Part shown: piece by piece, positions 2,463 through 64,000 of the stretch
Layout of the letters: every line of letters starts with the position of its first letter
Numbering within the stretch: position 1 is the stretch's first letter
Assembly: GCA_025963725.1 (NCBI GenBank)
Contig: JAOQAE010000006.1
Coordinates: 1 to 64,000, forward strand
Direction of reading: 5' to 3'
Length of the DNA: 64,000 nt
Source of the DNA: Bacteroidota bacterium
Lineage (GTDB): Bacteria; Bacteroidota; Bacteroidia; 2-12-FULL-35-15
Made by a program: the position numbers and the translations under genes
The notes under the pieces: generated by a model
What the model was told of the DNA's origin: nothing
What the model saw: only the letters and a program-made list of their open reading frames with translations
Databases searched by the model: none

Positions 2463-3674
2463 TTACTCCTTAATGAATCGCCTTACCGCGCTTCCTGCCG
2501 GGCTATTCACTTTGAGCACATACAATCCCGGTGAAAAGCTTCCGGTGCTGATCACCGTTGCCGATGATTCGGGCACGATGCGCTGGATCAGCTGCCCCTG
2601 CAGGTTGAACACTTCCACTGTTGTATTCTTATAATCGGATACTTCCAGCACAAGCTTATCAGTAACGGGGTTCGGGTACATGATGAGGCCATCGTCGCTG
2701 CTGAGCCCTTCGATGCCGGCAGTGATGCCAAGCTCCGACAGAGGACGCCTCCACACGCCAACGCTGTGATAAATATTTCCGGCGAAAACATACGTGCTGT
2801 TTACCGCAAATGAAGTAACGGAAAGGTTTGCAGCGCCTGCACCTGTGCTGATGTCGCTCCAGGTTGTTCCGTTATCAACAGTGGAATACATGGAGTACGG
2901 GCATCCCACGAGCAGCTTGGTTCCGCCGGCGATGAGGGCAGTTGCGTTATCGATGATCCCGGATGTATTCGTGGTCGGGTTCCAGGTAAGGCCATTATCG
3001 GCCGACTTGAACACGCCATTTTGCGTGGCTGCGAAAATAGTGCTGCCGATCACGGCCAGCGCATCCGCATCGCCTGTAACGCTGGTAGCAGCCCAGGTAA
3101 GTCCGCCGTTGGTCGACAGGAACACACCGCCATTTGTTCCGCCATTGCAGCTCCCTGACGCAGCGATCATGTTTGTGCCGCTCATGATGATGGAATTCAC
3201 GGTGATGCCATTTAACACGGCATTCGTGCTTTTCACCCAGGTAGTGCCATTGTCGATGGATGTATACACGCCATCAAAGCTCATGCTCGCGTATACGGTT
3301 GTTCCCGCTACTGCAATTCCACAGGCATACAGGTAGGTGAAGCCAGTGTTCTTTGCTGCCCATGTAACTCCGTTGTCTGTAGACGCAAAAACACCGTGGC
3401 CGAAAGTGGCTGCAAAAACAGTGGACCCGCTCACCGCGAGCTGCTTCACATCCTGGCCGGCGAAATTAGTATCGGCCACTGCCGTCCAACTGTTGCCGTT
3501 ATTGGTGGAGATGAACAAACCGGCATCGGTACCGGCAAGCACGTTAGGCCCGATAGTAACAACCGAGTTGACATTATTAGTGGTTAGGCCCGTATTAACG
3601 GCTTGCCATTGCGCATTTGCAGCAGTGCATGCCAGCACGAGCAGAAGCGTGATCCATGTAAATTTCGTTTTCAT
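2463..3674 (-). CDS. Secreted beta-propeller (YCF48/BNR-like) protein with T9SS type A sorting domain
   Basis: A 403 aa protein with an N-terminal signal peptide (KFTWITLLLVLACTAANA). It has about six repeats of the form 'G-x-x-x-GVF-x-S-x-DNG-x-TW', for example GLFISTNNGNSWTAV, GVFASTDNGVTWAAK and GVFKSADNGLTWNP, typical of sialidase/YCF48-like propellers. The C-terminal ~75 residues (LIMYPNPVTDKLVLEV to VRRFIKE) are a Por-secretion (type A) sorting signal. No catalytic signature of a true sialidase is visible, so enzymatic activity should not be assumed. It is a paralogue of the neighbouring gene at 3742-4926. Confidence 0.85.
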   Translation of the reverse strand: MKTKFTWITLLLVLACTAANAQWQAVNTGLTTNNVNSVVTIGPNVLAGTDAGLFISTNNGNSWTAVADTNFAGQDVKQLAVSGSTVFAATFGHGVFASTDNGVTWAAKNTGFTYLYACGIAVAGTTVYASMSFDGVYTSIDNGTTWVKSTNAVLNGITVNSIIMSGTNMIAASGSCNGGTNGGVFLSTNGGLTWAATSVTGDADALAVIGSTIFAATQNGVFKSADNGLTWNPTTNTSGIIDNATALIAGGTKLLVGCPYSMYSTVDNGTTWSDISTGAGAANLSVTSFAVNSTYVFAGNIYHSVGVWRRPLSELGITAGIEGLSSDDGLIMYPNPVTDKLVLEVSDYKNTTVEVFNLQGQLIQRIVPESSATVISTGSFSPGLYVLKVNSPAGSAVRRFIKE

Positions 3675-3741: not shown

Positions 3742-4926
3742 TTACTGAATAATGAGCTTACGGGAATACATGCCTGTACCGTCGCTTACCTTTACAAAAT
3801 AAATCCCTTTTGGAGCCGCTGAAAGGTCGATCTCCATTCCATTCTGCAGATCAGCATTCTGCACCGACAACACTTTTGCGCCGAGCAGGCTGTATACTTC
3901 AAGGCTTGCATTTTCAATGTTGCTTCCTGCTTCTATCCTGAACTGTCCGTTGCCGGGGTTCGGGTACATTACAAAATCCAGGTCTTTATTCATTTCTTCG
4001 ATCCCAACGATCATTTCAGACAAAGGGCGCTTCCAAACGCCATCGCCATATCCGCCCGCATAAATGTAGCCGCCGGTGATCAGCAGTGAGCGGAAGTCGT
4101 ACCCGGTTAAACCGTTATTTACCGCATTTGCAGCTGTGCCGGTTGCCCATGTAGCGCCGTTGTCGGTTGAGAGGCGGATGCCGCTGCTGGAGGTTCCTGC
4201 AAAAATATTATTCCCGCTTCTTGCAAGGGCATAGATGGTTGTGCTGCCTGTGCTTGTTGCCCAGCTTGAGCCATCGTTGTTGGAGATCCACAGTCCGCCA
4301 TCGGAAGAAGCCGTTCCTGCAAATGTTCTTGTTCCGTTGGTAAGCAATGAGAAAACGCTGCTGGTGGTCATGCCTGCGTTAGCAGCAATAAATGATGCCG
4401 CATTATCGGTTGACAAACGCACTCCGCCGCCGTACATCCCGGCGAAGATCTTTGATCCGTTCACCGTGATCGAGCGTACATAGCCGCCGCTGAGGCCGGT
4501 AGAGCTGAAGGTAAGGCCATTATCGGTCGACTTGTACATCCCTGCGCCTTCGGTTCCGGCCAATATATCGGTTCCATTTGCTGCGAGCGACCAGATGTTA
4601 TAAACGCTTAGTGCAGAGTGCGTCCATGTTGCTGCGCTGTCGTTAGAGATCCATACGCCGCTGTTACCTGTGCCGGCAAACAGTGTAGAGCCTTTCACCA
4701 ACAGTGAATATACATTGTACATGGTAAGGCTGGATGTCCATGTTGCGCCATTGTCGCTCGATTTCATAACACCTGTGCCTCCGGCGTAAATGTTTGTTCC
4801 ATCGGTAGCAAGGCAATTCACTACACCGGAGGTCATCCCGGTCTGCGACCATTGTGCTTTCACAAAATTGTTAAGCCCTGCAAAAAGAAAGAATGCAATT
4901 GTAAAGAGAGTAATTTTTGTTTTCAT
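3742..4926 (-). CDS. Secreted beta-propeller protein with T9SS type A sorting domain (paralogue of neighbour)
   Basis: A 394 aa protein with signal peptide KITLFTIAFFLFAGLNNFVKA. Repeats such as GVMKSSDNGATWTSSL, GVWISNDSAATWTHS and GMYKSTDNGLTFSSTG predict a beta-propeller. The C-terminus FVMYPNPGNGQFRIEAG to YSRKLIIQ is a T9SS type A sorting domain. Both this gene and the next one downstream share the WKRPLSE / WRRPLSE junction before the sorting domain, which supports tandem duplication. The two genes are separated by 67 nt on the same strand and may be cotranscribed. The ligand or substrate is unknown. Confidence 0.85.
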   Translation of the reverse strand: MKTKITLFTIAFFLFAGLNNFVKAQWSQTGMTSGVVNCLATDGTNIYAGGTGVMKSSDNGATWTSSLTMYNVYSLLVKGSTLFAGTGNSGVWISNDSAATWTHSALSVYNIWSLAANGTDILAGTEGAGMYKSTDNGLTFSSTGLSGGYVRSITVNGSKIFAGMYGGGVRLSTDNAASFIAANAGMTTSSVFSLLTNGTRTFAGTASSDGGLWISNNDGSSWATSTGSTTIYALARSGNNIFAGTSSSGIRLSTDNGATWATGTAANAVNNGLTGYDFRSLLITGGYIYAGGYGDGVWKRPLSEMIVGIEEMNKDLDFVMYPNPGNGQFRIEAGSNIENASLEVYSLLGAKVLSVQNADLQNGMEIDLSAAPKGIYFVKVSDGTGMYSRKLIIQ

Positions 4927-5174: not shown

Positions 5175-7367
5175 TTATTGCTTAACCATTTTTTTGGTTT
5201 CAACAATTTTTCCATCTACAACAAGTGTATAAGTGTAAACTCCTTTTGTAAGATCATTAGCAAATACATTAACCTGTCCCTTGCCTTTTGATGTTAATTC
5301 CACAGTTTTAATTAAAAGACCATTTGAATTATAAAACAACATTTGAGCTGTTTTTACATCCTCTGGTAAATAATAATTAATTGTGGTTTGTTCTGCGAAA
5401 GGATTTGGAGAGTTTTGATCTAAAACAACAATATTTTTATTGCTCAATTGTACGTCAGTAACATTGTTTGCAGTTTGCAGATTAGAGTTGCTCTGCTGCG
5501 TTGATTGAGTAGCGGTGGAATAAGCATTGAGCATAGAATCCAATTTGTTGATTTTGTTTTCCATTTTCGCAATGGTTGCATCTTTCATGGCATCCTTGCT
5601 AACCAATGCTGTATTTATAGAATCAAGCTGTTTGATCGAGTTGATCATCACGTAAATTAATCCATCATAGTTATACGTTAAGGGGCTAACTATTGCCTGA
5701 GCTTCACCTGCACTATCTGCCGGTATTGCAATTGAATTTCCAAAAACAGAGCTCTGCGATTGTTTCACTACCAATTTTCCCGTACCCACGCAATATGGAG
5801 CCACCGGCTGAATATCCTGTGCAATCACCCCAATATGTGTTTCCTCAGTGGATAAATTTCCAACTCCATTAAATTTATAAGTTACAGGGTTTACCTGACG
5901 CAAAACCGAAAGGCCATCTTTAAAAGGAGCAATATCTTTTTTTAATCGCTTATCTGAGTATCCGGTCCATGAACCTGAGGTTGGTTTTTCCGGGCTATCA
6001 TTAGTAGTTCTGATCTTTCCATCAAAAACCCCTGCATATTGGCCTGGCACAGCATAATCACCAGCATTTCCACCAAATACAGCAGCGCCATTATTGGTGC
6101 CTGTAATTCTTCCATAAACACCATAATTATATCCCGTGGTTCCATTCCCCGCCTGCCCCAATACACCATAAGCCCGCCCCGCACTCGCCGATGCATTTGT
6201 GGCAGACCCATAAATACCCGTGCAATAACCGGTTCCGCTCGTTACCACTCCTTCAGATCCATAAGCATGATTGCCGGCGGAATTAGGTGTCGCAACCTCC
6301 GCCCTGAGACCTGCATCTCCGTCCGTGGTATTATCTGTGTTTTTAAAAAAACCGGTAATGTAAGAAAAGCCGTTCCCACCAACACTCAAAAGGGATGTTG
6401 CGCCTGTGGCATCGCCTGACAACCCAATTCCTACATTTGCTCCATTGCCAAGAATCATATTGTTTGAAACTTTAACAACGGTATTTGCTCCGATTGCCGC
6501 TGAATTAGTAATTGTTGCCGCACCTGAATTATCCGCATTATAACCTATAAAGGTATTTGTACTTCCTGTCGTGTTAGAAAGACCTGCCTGATAACCAAGA
6601 AAAACATTATTACCGCCGGTAGTTGTAGCAAACCCTGCTTTGGTTCCGAAGATCGAGTTATTTGAATAAGTTGGAGTTCCGGTTCCTAAACCCGCATACC
6701 ATCCATAAACACAATTGTAACTACCGGCGGCATTTCCTCCAAGAGCACTATGCCCATACACGCAGTTTGCTGCTCCGGTTGTAACGGATACGCCTGCCTG
6801 CCAGCCGGTAAACGTATTATCGTTTCCTGTTGTGGTATTATAACCTGCAGCGCGGCCGATGTATGTATTATCAATCCCCGTGGAACCGGAGCCTCCGTTC
6901 CCGTAACCTGCGTATGCTCCTATGAAGGTATTATCATTCCCGGTAAAATTCATTCCGGCATGTGATCCAATGTACGAGTTCATCGCACTGGAGCCCGAAT
7001 TATAATAACCGGCATCATTACCTACAAAAACATTGTCACTTCCGCCAGCAGCAGTACCAGCACCAACCCCTACATAAATATTACTTGTTATTCCATTATG
7101 CCATAAAATATTACTTCCCCCGATCTTATAGGCACTGGTGGAAGTGATATTCGTGTGCCCGTTTACATCGAGTTTGTAGCTTCCTGCCATACCGATTCCT
7201 ACATTTGTTGCGTTATCCTGGATCTGAGAATTTCCAATGGTGTTCGTTCCGGTAAACTTTGGAATTATCCCACTTGTTCCGACCCCTGTGATGGTTTGAG
7301 CATTAACCGTTGATAACATGGTAATACCAGTAATCATAGCGCATAGTAATTTGTTTTTTGCTTTCAT
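5175..7367 (-). CDS. YadA-head-like repeat protein with peptidase S74 chaperone domain and T9SS type A sorting domain
   Basis: A 730 aa secreted protein with signal peptide NKLLCAMITGITMLSTVNA. Residues ~80-290 hold left-handed-helix repeats like trimeric adhesin heads (NVFVGNDAGYYNSG, NTFIGAYAGYGNGG, NTYIGRAAGYN). A beta-rich middle follows. At 471-476 lies SDKRLK, the start of an intramolecular chaperone/peptidase S74 domain, with the Ser471 and Lys476 dyad present and HIGVIAQDIQ downstream. A short helical segment (about 590-620) precedes a T9SS type A sorting domain (LDQNSPNPFAEQTTINYYL to KKMVKQ). S74 domains trimerise phage tail spikes and similar fibres, then cleave themselves off. Here the sorting signal lies beyond the predicted cut. 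It is not evidence of a prophage: no phage genes are nearby. Confidence 0.88.
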   Translation of the reverse strand: MKAKNKLLCAMITGITMLSTVNAQTITGVGTSGIIPKFTGTNTIGNSQIQDNATNVGIGMAGSYKLDVNGHTNITSTSAYKIGGSNILWHNGITSNIYVGVGAGTAAGGSDNVFVGNDAGYYNSGSSAMNSYIGSHAGMNFTGNDNTFIGAYAGYGNGGSGSTGIDNTYIGRAAGYNTTTGNDNTFTGWQAGVSVTTGAANCVYGHSALGGNAAGSYNCVYGWYAGLGTGTPTYSNNSIFGTKAGFATTTGGNNVFLGYQAGLSNTTGSTNTFIGYNADNSGAATITNSAAIGANTVVKVSNNMILGNGANVGIGLSGDATGATSLLSVGGNGFSYITGFFKNTDNTTDGDAGLRAEVATPNSAGNHAYGSEGVVTSGTGYCTGIYGSATNASASAGRAYGVLGQAGNGTTGYNYGVYGRITGTNNGAAVFGGNAGDYAVPGQYAGVFDGKIRTTNDSPEKPTSGSWTGYSDKRLKKDIAPFKDGLSVLRQVNPVTYKFNGVGNLSTEETHIGVIAQDIQPVAPYCVGTGKLVVKQSQSSVFGNSIAIPADSAGEAQAIVSPLTYNYDGLIYVMINSIKQLDSINTALVSKDAMKDATIAKMENKINKLDSMLNAYSTATQSTQQSNSNLQTANNVTDVQLSNKNIVVLDQNSPNPFAEQTTINYYLPEDVKTAQMLFYNSNGLLIKTVELTSKGKGQVNVFANDLTKGVYTYTLVVDGKIVETKKMVKQ

Positions 7368-59925: not shown

Positions 59926-60024
59926 CCCAAGGTACATTTTCGGGAACTGCGGCTAATGCTACTGGAACTTCCATCGCAGAAAAAATATTAAAATGATAAT
60001 ATTATAATTACAGGAAGAAAATAA

Positions 60025-61047
60025 ATGAAAATATTACGATTAATTACAGTCACGGCAGCCGCTTTTTTTCACACAAGCTCCCAAGGACAAAACACTATTG
60101 ACGTTGCGGAAAGCACATTAAAAGTGAGTGGCTTGAGTGAAGAAATTTTTTATTATGGATTTTCAGAAGGTGATCAACTAATATTCAGTTTTGAAGAACT
60201 GAACAGAAAAGAGCTGAAAGAAATTGAAATCATTGAGCTTCCCGCATCTTCCAAATTTATGGACTATAAAACTGCGAGGATCGACAATAAGACCATAACT
60301 ATTACAAATACGGGTATTTATAAATTCCGGTTTTCTAATTCTGCACTAACGGGCAGAATCTGTAAGTTTAAAATTCAGCGTATACCTGCCGACCAATCAA
60401 AAAAGTTCAATACAAATGTATATTGGAAAACCGTGTATGACACAACGTATACTACGGTACAGGAAAAATACCTTATTAAATCAGACACCATAATAAATAA
60501 CATTACGGATCAGGTTGCGAAAGTACATTCCCAAGGAAATATGGATGGCAATAAATCCTACTTCAATTTCTCCCTGCCTCCAAACACAATTTCATGGAGC
60601 TACTACATAGGCGTAGACCAGGGAGGGATGCAAGCGTATCAAAATGCTACAGCTCTACTGGCAAAAAATGCCGGCCCCATCGCTTCCAAGCTTCCGGGGT
60701 ACGGACCGCTGGCCTCGCTCGCCTTAGGTGGTGCATCTTATATCGCTCAATTACAATCCGGAGAAGATATAGATTTTTGGATCGTACAAGGTGATAATGC
60801 AAACTTATGGCAAAGTGATCAACAATTTTATTACATAAAAAAAGGTAAGGTTTTAAATGATTATTCACGAATGCTATCGCCCCTTAAAGGGAACAACTTG
60901 TTTGTTTGCCTCAGTAATGACAATGCTATCACCGGCGTTCAGGTCACAGTTAAAATAACGGCAATTTCAGTAAATGAGGAATGGGGATTAAGGCCTATTC
61001 AAAAAATGCACATTAGCAGTAAGCAAGTGGCTTATTTGAAAAATTAA
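60025..61047 (+). CDS. Secreted protein of unknown function
   Basis: A 340 aa protein with signal peptide KILRLITVTAAAFFHTSSQGQ. The first ~130 residues form a beta sandwich (DQLIFSFEELNRKELKEIEIIELP, KTITITNTGIYKFRFSN), reminiscent of a jelly-roll or Ig-like domain. The middle has FNFSLPPNTISWSYYIGVDQGG and a Gly/Ala-rich helical segment around LPGYGPLASLALGGASYIA, which could insert in or contact a membrane. A final beta region follows (NNLFVCLSNDNAITGVQVTVKI). I know homologous-looking proteins only as hypothetical. It lies on the same strand as its neighbours, 28 nt after the apparent end of the frameshifted gene. Confidence 0.7.
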   Translation: MKILRLITVTAAAFFHTSSQGQNTIDVAESTLKVSGLSEEIFYYGFSEGDQLIFSFEELNRKELKEIEIIELPASSKFMDYKTARIDNKTITITNTGIYKFRFSNSALTGRICKFKIQRIPADQSKKFNTNVYWKTVYDTTYTTVQEKYLIKSDTIINNITDQVAKVHSQGNMDGNKSYFNFSLPPNTISWSYYIGVDQGGMQAYQNATALLAKNAGPIASKLPGYGPLASLALGGASYIAQLQSGEDIDFWIVQGDNANLWQSDQQFYYIKKGKVLNDYSRMLSPLKGNNLFVCLSNDNAITGVQVTVKITAISVNEEWGLRPIQKMHISSKQVAYLKN

Positions 61048-61073
61048 ACATAACCAACAACTAATATTAAAAA

Positions 61074-61544
61074 ATGGAAACTATCACAAGCAAATTCACA
61101 GAAAAGGCAATCTTCATTGAAGACATCGAGAAAATCGATTTTACTATGATTAAACTTAAACTGCAAGACGAAGAGGAGGGCCAGGGATGGAATATTGAAC
61201 AAGCAAATGAAGCTGAAAAAGAATATAAAAAATTCTTGGCGCTAAAACGCGTCTATCATACCAAGGAAATTGTTCCTAATAAAACAATTGATATTTTTTG
61301 GCACCAGCATATATTAGACACAGAAGCATATGCAAAAGACTGCGATACTATATTTGGCTTCTTCATCCACCATTATCCTTATTTTGGCATGAATGGAGAT
61401 CAAGATGCGCAAAACCTAGTCGATGCGTTCGAAGAAACAAAAATTCTTTATAAATATCATTTTGACAAGAATTATTTGGGTGAAGCGCCCAAATGTAAAA
61501 CGCCTAAATGTCGAACTGCATGTAAACCTATGAAATGCAAATAA
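61074..61544 (+). CDS. GRDP-like (glycine-rich-domain family, DUF1399-type) protein with Cys/Lys-rich tail
   Basis: A 156 aa protein. The motif DIFWHQHILDTEAYAKDCDT followed by FGFFIHHYPYFGM fits the pattern W-H-x-H-x-L-D…Y…D-C…G…H-H of GRDP-like proteins known from plants and bacteria. The end is EAPKCKTPKCRTACKPMKCK, a short tail rich in Cys and Lys, possibly metal-binding or a modified-peptide core. Biochemical function of the family is not settled. It starts 26 nt after the previous gene, and no obvious promoter or terminator separates it from the structured region that follows. Confidence 0.65.
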   Translation: METITSKFTEKAIFIEDIEKIDFTMIKLKLQDEEEGQGWNIEQANEAEKEYKKFLALKRVYHTKEIVPNKTIDIFWHQHILDTEAYAKDCDTIFGFFIHHYPYFGMNGDQDAQNLVDAFEETKILYKYHFDKNYLGEAPKCKTPKCRTACKPMKCK

Positions 61545-61654
61545 AAAGATTTGATAAAATTTGTCTGTTTATACACCAACATATGATGAGATGGCAGCTT
61601 CACCTCTTTTGTTGAAAAAAATTGAAAACCTCTATAGGAAGAGCGTTTTTTTAT

Positions 61655-61991
61655 GATGAAACCGAGTTAAATTTGCTGTGCTTTCGATGAGGTACGAAAA
61701 CTCGTACTTGTGTTGGAAGGGTTGAAGTTTAACGTATGGTCTCCCCATAAGGTTACCAATAAATCTATCCACGTTGATAGATTTACTGCTAACCTTGCCA
61801 CCTCACGTGGCAGGTCAGCCTGTACAAAGAATCTCAGTAGTAGTATCATCATTTCTGCTGTATTTATATAGTTTTTAGGCGTTAGATTACGATTTAGTCA
61901 CGTATTCGAAAGTTGTGGGTGACTCCCGGTTGTTTGCGCCAAAAACCCTTCCCTGAAATGGGCGATACGCGCTAATCGTTGGGTTTTTGGC
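61655..61991 (+). ncRNA. Candidate structured ncRNA preceding the reverse transcriptase gene
   Basis: Gene-free stretch with at least seven helices. P1: 61666-61674 with 61725-61733 (9 bp, one G-U), enclosing P2: 61690-61697 with 61702-61709 (8 bp, AAAC loop). P3: 61735-61739 with 61745-61749. P4: 61749-61755 with 61790-61796 (7 bp), enclosing P5: 61760-61769 with 61776-61785 (10 bp). P6: 61797-61801 with 61807-61811. P7: 61938-61948 with 61981-61991 (11 bp, perfect), containing a smaller CGAT/ATCG stem. Spacing to the RT start (62020) is 28 nt. DRT2 and DRT9 systems have an essential ncRNA in this position that serves as template. The RNA boundaries are approximate, and transcription is inferred. 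Confidence 0.6.
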
Positions 61992-62019
61992 TTTGCAGGA
62001 TATTCTTATTTTAATATAT

Positions 62020-63444
62020 ATGTTGAATGCGGCTCTTTTTACTAAATGGACTGAAAAGGAAAAAGGAGCCGCATTAAGCAAAAAAAGGCGGTACGCGCAT
62101 TTTGATCCTAAGATTGATTTCTTAAAAAACATTTCTATTTTAAGAAATTTTCTGGCTGATCCTAAAAAGGTCTCAACACATTCATTCTATCCGTTTATAA
62201 AATCTGACATTGTTGTTCCTCGATATAAAAAGACAGGAAAGCTGGATGAAAAAGGAAAACCAATTCGTAAATTGGAGAATAAGATACGCCCAATAGCGTA
62301 CGCTGCACATTTTGATGCATTTATTTATTCCTGGTATTCAACATTGCTTTCTGAGCACTACGAGAAGAAAACAAAGGAGTTAGGAATTTATGATTGTGTA
62401 TTAGCCTACTTGGAAAAGGATAAAAGCAACATCGAATTTGCTGATGAAGTATTTGAATACATTAAAGTCAAAGGTGAATGCGTTGCGCTTGCCTTTGATA
62501 TAACAAGCTTTTTTGACGGCTTGGACCACGCGCACTTAAAAAAAATGTGGTCGCTCACATTGAATGAATCACGGCTTCCAGAAGACCATTTCAACATCTA
62601 CCGTTCGATAACATCTTATACCACCGTCCAAAAAGAAAGGGTTGAGTCAGACTTCAACATACAAGCGAAAAAAGAAGCTGGTATAAGAATAGCAAGGATA
62701 TGCTCTCCTAACGATTTCCGCGAAAAGGTCAGAGGAGGCGGAATGATTGAGAAAAGCCCATTCACAAATAAAGTTAAAGGAAGTACAAGATTAGGCGAAA
62801 TCTGTGGAATTCCGCAGGGTTCACCAATAAGTGCCTGCCTTTCCAATATCTATATGATGGAGTTTGATGTTGACATCCACACGATGATTAGTCACCTTGG
62901 AGGATTATACCGTAGATATTGCGATGATATAGTGGTGGTCGTTAAGATTGAAGATGCCACCAAAGTTAAAGATGCGATAATTAAAACAATTGTTGATTAT
63001 CATTTAGAGATTAATGATAGCAAAACTGAAGTGACGTATTTTAAAGATGATGGCGGAAAGCTCAAAGGATTTGATAACCCATCTTCCAATGCAAAAGAAA
63101 GGAACATGCAGTATCTCGGTTTTGAGTTTAATGGAGAAAATGCGTATATCCGTTCATCCAGTCTTTCCCGATACTACAGAAGGATGACGGCCAGAATTCG
63201 AGAGAACTTAAAAGCCGCTTATGGACAGAATTCAATTGGGTCAAAGATATTTAGAAAGAAACTTTATAATAGGTATACAGAAAAAGGAGAGCGAAATTTC
63301 ATTTCATATGCCGAAAGAGCCTATGAACACATGGAGTCGAAGACAATATATAATCAGGTAAAAAATAGCAAGAAAAAGGTTAACAAAAAATTGGCTCAGA
63401 AAAACGCCACGTTTATAGCTAAACGACCAAAAAATATGCAATAA
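62020..63444 (+). CDS. Unknown-group (UG/DRT-type) reverse transcriptase, candidate anti-phage RT
   Basis: A 474 aa RT from ATG 62020; a TTG-started extension to 61987 would overlap helix P7 and is less likely. RT motifs: RPIAYAAHFDAFIYSWYSTLL (RT2-like), catalytic Asp in FDITSFFDGLDH (Asp160), GIPQGSPISACLSNIYM (263-279), YRRYCDDIVVVV with catalytic YCDD at 300-303, INDSKTEVTYF, and YLGFEFNGENAYIRSSSLSRYYR. There is no intron maturase X domain, HNH or retron VTG motif, and it lacks the DGR SQ motif. The PQGSPISACLSN form and the C-terminal Lys-rich helices fit UG-class RTs. The preceding structured RNA favours a DRT2- or DRT9-like system. Catalytic residues are complete. Confidence 0.85.
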   Translation: MLNAALFTKWTEKEKGAALSKKRRYAHFDPKIDFLKNISILRNFLADPKKVSTHSFYPFIKSDIVVPRYKKTGKLDEKGKPIRKLENKIRPIAYAAHFDAFIYSWYSTLLSEHYEKKTKELGIYDCVLAYLEKDKSNIEFADEVFEYIKVKGECVALAFDITSFFDGLDHAHLKKMWSLTLNESRLPEDHFNIYRSITSYTTVQKERVESDFNIQAKKEAGIRIARICSPNDFREKVRGGGMIEKSPFTNKVKGSTRLGEICGIPQGSPISACLSNIYMMEFDVDIHTMISHLGGLYRRYCDDIVVVVKIEDATKVKDAIIKTIVDYHLEINDSKTEVTYFKDDGGKLKGFDNPSSNAKERNMQYLGFEFNGENAYIRSSSLSRYYRRMTARIRENLKAAYGQNSIGSKIFRKKLYNRYTEKGERNFISYAERAYEHMESKTIYNQVKNSKKKVNKKLAQKNATFIAKRPKNMQ

Positions 63445-63446
63445 AA

Positions 63447-64000
63447 ATGAGTCCTTGGAAAAAATATAAGGTAGGAAAACCTAGTGCCACAAAAAATTGG
63501 ACAAACTCAAATTGTTGCCCCCTTGAAAAAATATATCATGTGGCACATATCGAGACTGCATCAAGAATTTTTAAAGACGGAAGAATAAAGGCAGGACTTA
63601 TTTTTGATAAAAGTATACTAAACACCCAAAGAATCTTAGTTAATTGGCTCTCGCCTAATCACTGGACTAACGGTTCGAGATATGGAAACATTGAGTTTTC
63701 TTTTAATTTTAAGAAACTCTGTATTAACTCAAACTACTATTGGGTAGAAGATATTGCCTATGGTATTCCGGCCTGCAGAATACTTATAACTGATAAAGAT
63801 TATTCCAAATTACTTCCTTCATACGACCCTACTGATGGAGACGGTCCTTGGTTTTATGACGAAAACAACGATATCCACTATTGGAATGGTGACATCTGTA
63901 TGGAATTCATGCTGGAGAAAGACATTTTACTAAACGAATGTGACGAAATAGGATATATGAAACATCATCCCACTTTTTGCAACAACGGTCATTTGATATG
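63447..64000 (+). CDS. RT-linked protein with DarT/ART-like N-terminus (partial, runs off the window)
   Basis: ATG 63447 lies 2 nt after the RT stop and the frame is open for 184 codons to the window edge. The start is MSPWKKYKVGKPSATKNW. Key segment: CCPLEKIYHVAHIETASRIF (about 23-42) followed by KDGRIKAG, which resembles the HITHIDN…IL..G opening of DarT-type and other ADP-ribosyltransferases. WLSPNHWTNGSRYGNIEFSF (about 67-86), YYWVEDIAYGIPACRILITD and YWNGDICMEFM then HHPTFC follow. The pattern is mixed alpha/beta with many conserved aromatic positions. Assignment to the ART fold is tentative; it could be another toxin-like domain. The 2-nt gap indicates translational coupling to the RT, so they likely act together. 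Confidence 0.6.
   Translation, partial: MSPWKKYKVGKPSATKNWTNSNCCPLEKIYHVAHIETASRIFKDGRIKAGLIFDKSILNTQRILVNWLSPNHWTNGSRYGNIEFSFNFKKLCINSNYYWVEDIAYGIPACRILITDKDYSKLLPSYDPTDGDGPWFYDENNDIHYWNGDICMEFMLEKDILLNECDEIGYMKHHPTFCNNGHLI

Follow-up and report, generated by a model that had tools for sequence, protein, structure and literature searches.

Gene and domain organization

The window, by which we mean the whole stretch of 64,000 nucleotides analysed here, carries on its minus strand (5175-7367) an open reading frame of 730 amino acids plus stop, with two further genes for sorting-domain proteins downstream of it. The features of the locus are the following:

5175..7367, minus strand: whole gene, encoding signal peptide, repeat head, S74 domain, coil, linker and type IX secretion system (T9SS) type A sorting domain, in this order
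7296..7367, minus strand: signal peptide, residues 1–24 (called by eye from the sequence)
6528..7082, minus strand: repeat head, residues about 96–280 (sequence, and AF2 blocks with pLDDT of about 56–81)
5958..6527, minus strand: remaining head/stalk, up to the expected scissile bond Tyr470-Ser471 (sequence; AF2 confidence low)
5673..5957, minus strand: S74 chaperone/autocleavage domain, residues 471–565, Pfam core 471–527 (PF13884, AF2, Foldseek, VIA-align)
5955..5957, minus strand: codon of Ser471, expected nucleophile (motif SDKRLK)
5940..5942, minus strand: codon of Lys476, expected general base (motif SDKRLK)
5499..5669, minus strand: long helix, residues 567–623, expected trimeric coiled coil (AF2)
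5427..5498, minus strand: linker, residues 624–647, mostly disordered (AF2 pLDDT below 50 in 626–647)
5178..5426, minus strand: T9SS type A sorting domain, residues 648–730 (TIGR04183, AF2, Foldseek, VIA-align)
3742..4926, minus strand: Asp-box/BNR protein with type A sorting domain, downstream neighbour (profile searches)
2463..3674, minus strand: second downstream Asp-box/BNR protein with type A sorting domain (profile searches)

In the profile search, PF13884 (Peptidase_S74) covers residues 471–527 with 57.1 bits against a cut-off of 22, and TIGR04183 (T9SS type A) covers residues 654–730 of 730 with 29 bits against a cut-off of 23. The T9SS tail model of Pfam, PF18962, reaches 25.6 bits on a C-terminal fragment, below its cut-off of 27, and is absent from the whole-protein profile search even at E up to 10. 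The initial annotation had described Ser471 and Lys476 as intact in SDKRLK and had placed a T9SS type A domain at the extreme C-terminus; both statements are borne out, as SDKRLK begins at residue 471 and the TIGR04183 match at 654–730 is above its cut-off. The repeats of the head are eleven N-x-x-x-G-x-x-A(-G)-like units with a spacing of about 17 residues (residues about 96–280), though the Pfam search gave no match to PF05658 (YadA_head) in this protein, and NF053851, the N-terminal domain of MAT proteins, gave none at E up to 1. A cut by PorU would be expected in the linker, residues 624–647.

Two characterized proteins bear on the function of the Ser-Lys dyad. For MyRF, passages of one study report that S587A or K592A abolishes cleavage and that trimerization of the domain is required, and that R590A does not block the cut and adds new sites (PMC8326128). 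Bd3182 of Bdellovibrio is described as cleaving itself at the Ser of SDxxxK, which S782A blocks (PMC10769870).

That the gene forms a conserved operon with its two Asp-box neighbours was considered and rejected, since tblastn (E 1e-8) against loci L010–L139, L222–L301, and L332–L351 found their relatives in three loci (L114, L255, and L290) besides that of the window itself. An origin as a phage gene was likewise rejected: three PHROGs match the window protein, two in the S74 region and one in the head, none of them over the tail, whose presence points to a gene of the host. Elsewhere in the window, a plus-strand gene at 61987-63444 encodes a reverse transcriptase matching models of the anti-phage system DRT2 (PADLOC Drt2, 491.7 bits), in a region of low GC (0.367 at 60001-64000 vs. 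about 0.44–0.51 elsewhere), and the end of the protein encoded at 171-1238 on the plus strand resembles by eye a type B (CHU_C) T9SS tail.

Predicted structure

All AF2 models are of single chains. The model of the last 280 residues, computed with 74 sequences, has a mean pLDDT of 80.5 and consists of a confident S74 domain, a helix of 57 residues (567–623), a disordered stretch (626–647) and a beta-sandwich, which is the sorting domain and has six strands if those of at least three residues are counted. Its top match in Foldseek is the ICA domain of MyRF (7dc3, E 4.6e-5), followed more weakly by endoNF (3gw6) and the T9SS sorting domains 8qb1 and 8gl6 (E about 1e-3 to 7e-3). In VIA-align, MyRF scores a Z of 9.2 (127 residues aligned) and the tail of PorU (6za2) a Z of 8.9, the latter amid many other beta-sandwiches; complement and further beta-sandwich proteins score highest there (Z up to 10.7), and only the rows of MyRF, PorU, and mirolase were used. 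The S74 part of the window protein is thus predicted to have the ICA fold with a C-terminal helix. The whole-protein model is weak, with a mean pLDDT of 49.5, and the head in this model found no Foldseek match at E 0.001 or better.

The Ser-Lys dyad among relatives

Of 395 genomes drawn evenly from Bacteroidota, 107 possess the S74 domain, and 25 of 152 non-redundant S74 ORFs bear a T9SS tail; the 152 come from nearly all of the best S74 matches, which alone were listed, with at least G158:C40 not included and the SDKNKK match of the host lying below the local cut. Ser is kept in 24 of these 25 tail-bearing ORFs and so is Lys. The lone exception reads EDARLR and is a 249-aa ORF (L067) in tandem with an intact copy. 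The 127 tail-less ORFs retain Ser in 125 cases and Lys in 126. A second sample was obtained by scanning a one-per-species genome collection with two patterns taken from the tail, after which the candidates were confirmed and ranked by tblastn with a fragment spanning S74, coil, and tail, and the best 80 of 324 loci were retained. Four of these loci were excluded because they are cut before the start of S74 (L240, L256, L257, and L291) and one holds two copies (L231), which leaves 77 readable S74 domains with 76 Ser and one Cys, 77 Asp, and 77 Lys, in a ranking that is biased towards loci with S74 and, to some degree, towards intact motifs, and that is uninformative on how frequent the tail is without S74. 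Both samples together retain Lys and either Ser or Cys in 101 of 102 tail-bearing sequences.

Across 229 distinct S74 sequences, four are without Ser (Ala, Glu, Pro, or Cys in its place) and two without Lys, and both losses of Lys occur in proteins that also lack Ser; such paired loss is what a working dyad predicts. Loss of the dyad may be under-counted, because the weakest S74 matches of the draw were unlisted and the ranking of the tail scan included S74. The local S74 profile has 29 of 30 seed segments beginning with Ser, and it still matched proteins with Glu, Ala, Pro, or Cys at that place. The initial annotation had proposed to check whether S74 relatives in Bacteroidota keep both the dyad and the C-terminal domain, and had named homologues with a mutated dyad as evidence against its view. 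Nearly all tail-bearing homologues read keep both (24/25 in the draw, 77/77 in the scan counting Cys), and mutated homologues amount to 1/25 and 0/77, respectively, with Ser-to-Cys counted as kept.

Two alignments of tail-bearing proteins were examined. That of the phylum draw holds 24 of the 25 proteins (L084, with 540 aa after its Ser, was excluded) and its S74 columns are led by G513, K476, S471, and A516, while that of the tail scan holds 73 of the 77 proteins plus the window protein, 74 in all, of which 74 match PF13884 and 72 match TIGR04183 (E up to 0.001). In both alignments S471, D472, and K476 are found within the ten best conserved S74 columns, and SDKRLK as a chance motif was rejected for this reason. 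Judged from the sequences, cleavage and sorting both look selected, and the SDxxxK motif could alternatively be retained for structure. Arg at position 4 of the motif is found in 103/127 tail-less ORFs and in 17/25 tail-bearing ORFs of the draw, and in only 18/77 of the tail scan.

Several relatives depart from the common layout. One tail-bearing S74 protein (L223) has the motif CDIRLK, in which Cys replaces the nucleophilic Ser; this may be a sequencing error. Two stand-alone S74 proteins of about 160 aa (L106 and L125) apparently consist of signal peptide, S74, and coil without a head. Three others (L048, L051, and L084) seem by eye to end, after the coil, in a transmembrane helix with charged residues, in the same order as MyRF, and this arrangement is a possible bacterial parallel to it.

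Sorting tail and secretion system of the host

The host genome encodes SprA and a full-length PorU (1353 bits), and it contains at least 150 T9SS tails: of 335 candidates, 150 were scored, and every one of these matches. There are five S74 matches in this genome, three of them tail-bearing (SDKRLK, SDAQFK, and SDQLFK) and two tail-less (SDRNKK and SDKNKK). Pairwise identities among the tail-bearing three are 72, 73, and 82% in the tail, 31, 37, and 63% in S74, and 23, 24, and 70% in the coil. Recent gene conversion as an explanation of the similar tails was rejected, and the similarity appears to reflect old purifying selection instead of recent copying, because agreement at third codon positions is low in the tails (26–38 of 83). 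Outside these three, the closest tail of the genome shares 37% identity, so that these tails form a divergent subfamily. Of the four regions compared over the 24 tail-bearing proteins of the phylum draw, the tail shows the highest conservation, with a mean majority fraction of 0.50, vs. 0.40 in S74, 0.35 in the coil, and 0.24 in the linker. On the S74 tree (FastTree, few columns) the tail label has to change no fewer than 14 times within the phylum draw and 20 times overall, and seven of these changes are forced by starred branches.

MAT-like fibres and small tail genes

To look at the N-terminal side of these proteins, about the first 170 residues of the S74 proteins were scanned against NCBIfam, the N-termini being chosen by rule as the first Met with a hydrophobic stretch, so that some, e.g., that of L062, are perhaps false starts. 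NF053851 was found at E up to 0.01 in 34 of 104 tail-less vs. none of 79 tail-bearing S74 proteins, the window protein included, a contrast that is inflated by kinship, since the scan with tail patterns supplied 61 of the 79. The best E is 6.2e-13, and the individual scores seen are below the curated cut-off of 60 bits. A local MAT-like profile gave 14/83 tail-less vs. 0/79 tail-bearing proteins when its 21 seed proteins were left out. By these matches, one third of the tail-less S74 fibres probably have an anchor in the part retained after cleavage, where the tail-bearing ones are without a recognized anchor. One tail-less S74 protein of the host (L138:3684-5690, contig C7) combines five YadA_head stretches (PF05658, E 4.9e-19) with a MAT-like N-terminus.

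A search with the tail subfamily led to small tail-bearing ORFs located just upstream of tail-less S74 genes. In loci chosen by S74, a tail-bearing ORF of less than 300 aa lies directly upstream of 6/82 tail-less vs. 0/18 tail-bearing S74 genes among those testable. Such an upstream ORF occurs in 7/9 loci chosen blind and in 11/11 chosen knowing that a tail gene was near, out of 20 further loci, and among the other genes of these loci only 5/281 have a small tail ORF directly upstream. The MAT-like domain itself was found in 86 of 296 genomes. When the 30 best genomes are each represented by their best locus (L354–L383), the small tail gene stands directly upstream of the MAT-like gene in 26 cases, at a distance of −29 to +21 nt between stop-to-stop frames; in two of the others (L369 and L372) the gene comes after another MAT-like gene, and the last two (L379 and L383) are without the small gene. 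Ten of the 30 loci lie outside family f25 and belong to genomes absent from the profile, and 8 of these ten have the small tail gene upstream. The link is not absolute, since two of the six S74-chosen cases (L055 and L064) have no MAT-like match in the local profile. The small proteins are about 160–200 aa long and show, by eye, a signal peptide, then a short region often of the form S-x-G-Q/E ... G-V/F-Q, and then the tail; examples in the host are G000:C7 near 1642147 (L374) and L138:7663-8169.

According to a passage of the MAT study, the N-terminal domain presumably binds some as yet unidentified component of the surface (PMC10769870). From gene order and domain content, the small tail protein is a candidate surface partner or anchor of the MAT-like fibre in Bacteroidota, or its escort, the interaction itself being a guess; if true, it would be the kind of surface element which that study expects, and the gene offers a concrete candidate for the missing partner of MAT-type fibres. 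We propose tentatively, and with somewhat more doubt than belief, that self-processing trimeric fibres of Bacteroidota follow two largely exclusive routes: one in cis, in which head, S74, and T9SS tail lie on one chain and cleavage after export would free the head, and one in trans, in which a tail-less MAT-like fibre is encoded directly behind a small secreted escort or receptor with a T9SS tail. Strict exclusivity is at odds with two tail-bearing S74 genes (L137 and L116), each directly preceded by a tail-bearing ORF of larger size (384 and 388 aa between stops), and with tail-bearing ORFs downstream of tail-less S74 genes in 16/115 cases.

Proposed order of export and cleavage

The window protein has head, S74 with an intact dyad, coil, and sorting domain in this order, and the recurrence of this order and the conservation of dyad and tail are observed in its relatives. 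The initial annotation had pointed out that autocleavage would remove the sorting domain along with the chaperone, and that cleavage is either delayed until after export and attachment or leaves only the chaperone anchored. This is partly supported: the sole recognized sorting domain does lie on the side removed by S74 cleavage, both elements are kept in nearly all homologues read, and the two alternatives are compatible with each other.

With about even confidence, we regard the window protein as a trimeric fibre or adhesin secreted by T9SS, in which a phage-type S74 domain would assist folding and be removed afterwards: the protein would trimerize at the surface and then be cut so that the head is freed from the tail. 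The chain would enter the periplasm through Sec, and its tail would bind SprA/PorV and exit first, followed by the chaperone and lastly by the head; a translocon study infers that substrates leave tail-first with PorV (PMC10994853). At the surface, three chains would trimerize through their coil and S74 domain, bringing the head into register, and only the trimer would cut, before Ser471. The tail-bearing S74-coil piece would then be left to PorU, which is described as freeing T9SS substrates or attaching them, type A cargo being attachable to lipopolysaccharide (PMC10202324). The head would become a separate trimer, either free or held non-covalently, and the tail would serve to deliver the head and not to anchor it covalently. 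This reading draws support from the dyad kept in 24/25 and 77/77 sequences (Cys counted in the latter), the dyad-dependent cleavage described for MyRF and Bd3182, the selection on the tail, the SprA, PorU, and at least 150 tails of the host, and the MAT contrast (0/79 vs. 34/104). Of the orders compared, late cleavage has the best support, since a head cut off earlier, inside the cell, would be left with no export signal. Against the reading as a whole, a trimer could form and cut already in the periplasm, as a passage of a review states that T9SS substrates fold there (PMC10202324), and the Arg at motif position 4, whose loss in MyRF adds cut sites, is absent in many tail-bearing relatives (18/77 keep it).

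It is somewhat unlikely, in our estimate, that the cut takes place outside and the head nevertheless stays non-covalently on the chaperone or another surface molecule, so that the mature adhesin would be cell-bound via the PorU-attached chaperone piece. Searches of Pfam and NCBIfam recognized no other anchor in the head, which favours such retention, whereas in phage S74 systems the chaperone is usually released. The attachment of type A cargo to lipopolysaccharide described above (PMC10202324) would suit a held head, but the Bd3182 gel is described as having separate fibre and chaperone domains (PMC10769870). That S74 merely trimerizes the fibre and stays in it, with no cleavage in vivo and PorU anchoring the whole, is unlikely: it would yield a covalently anchored adhesin and would fit the frequent loss of the motif Arg in tail-bearing relatives and the one dyad-less tail-bearing ORF (L067), but a protein that never cuts should not retain Ser and Lys as strictly as the 101/102 sequences do, nor would the two residues be expected to be lost together.

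Cleavage in the periplasm, where the tail would export the trimer while the chaperone still grips the head, or would export the chaperone alone, seems to us quite improbable. Periplasmic folding of substrates (PMC10202324) speaks for it, and MyRF processing is described as looking constitutive in every system its authors tried (PMC3742443), but strong selection on the tail would be pointless for the head unless the chaperone kept its grip, and one translocon would have to pass three tails per trimer. A C-terminal domain that is a sorting-domain-like beta-sandwich and no longer a functional T9SS signal is very hard to credit. PF18962 stays below its cut-off (25.6 of 27 bits) and the subfamily is divergent, its next best host tail being 37% identical, but TIGR04183 is above its cut-off here and matches 72/74 of the aligned set (E up to 0.001), the structure resembles T9SS tails, and purifying selection is strong.

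The protein places two predicted post-translational cuts, those of S74 and of the sortase, in series on one exported chain and makes their order testable, and it is relevant to the question of whether homotrimers can be exported or assembled by T9SS. In titles and the starts of abstracts, literature on peptidase S74, endosialidase chaperones, or tail fibers together with type IX secretion or Bacteroidota yielded no such protein, and among the matches listed for T9SS and trimeric proteins none was, by title, on T9SS export or assembly of homotrimers. S74 and the T9SS tail are each known families; neither their serial order nor the almost complete conservation of the dyad in tail-bearing proteins was found in the literature searched.

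Comparison with known systems

Endosialidase NF and the phage tailspikes and fibres share with the window protein the Ser-Lys dyad and a removable C-terminal chaperone, as reflected in the Foldseek match to 3gw6. They are assembled in the cytoplasm, and to our knowledge none has a sorting domain behind the chaperone. T9SS type A cargo such as RemA, mirolase, and the gingipains shares the C-terminal beta-sandwich sorting domain, and we know of no self-cleaving domain between functional part and tail in ordinary cargo of this type. The MyRF ICA domain is the closest solved fold (7dc3, E 4.6e-5), and the arrangement is alike in that a membrane anchor is described as holding the precursor while cleavage frees the transcription factor part (PMC3742443); MyRF differs in being a eukaryotic transcription factor that does not undergo outer-membrane export. 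The MAT fibres of Bdellovibrio, with Bd3182 as the case in which self-cleavage is described, are likewise surface trimeric fibres with a signal peptide and a C-terminal S74 domain containing SDxxxK (PMC10769870). Unlike the window protein, the MAT proteins with S74 end in this domain and possess a conserved N-terminal domain, whereas the window protein gives no match to that domain and carries a T9SS tail after S74.
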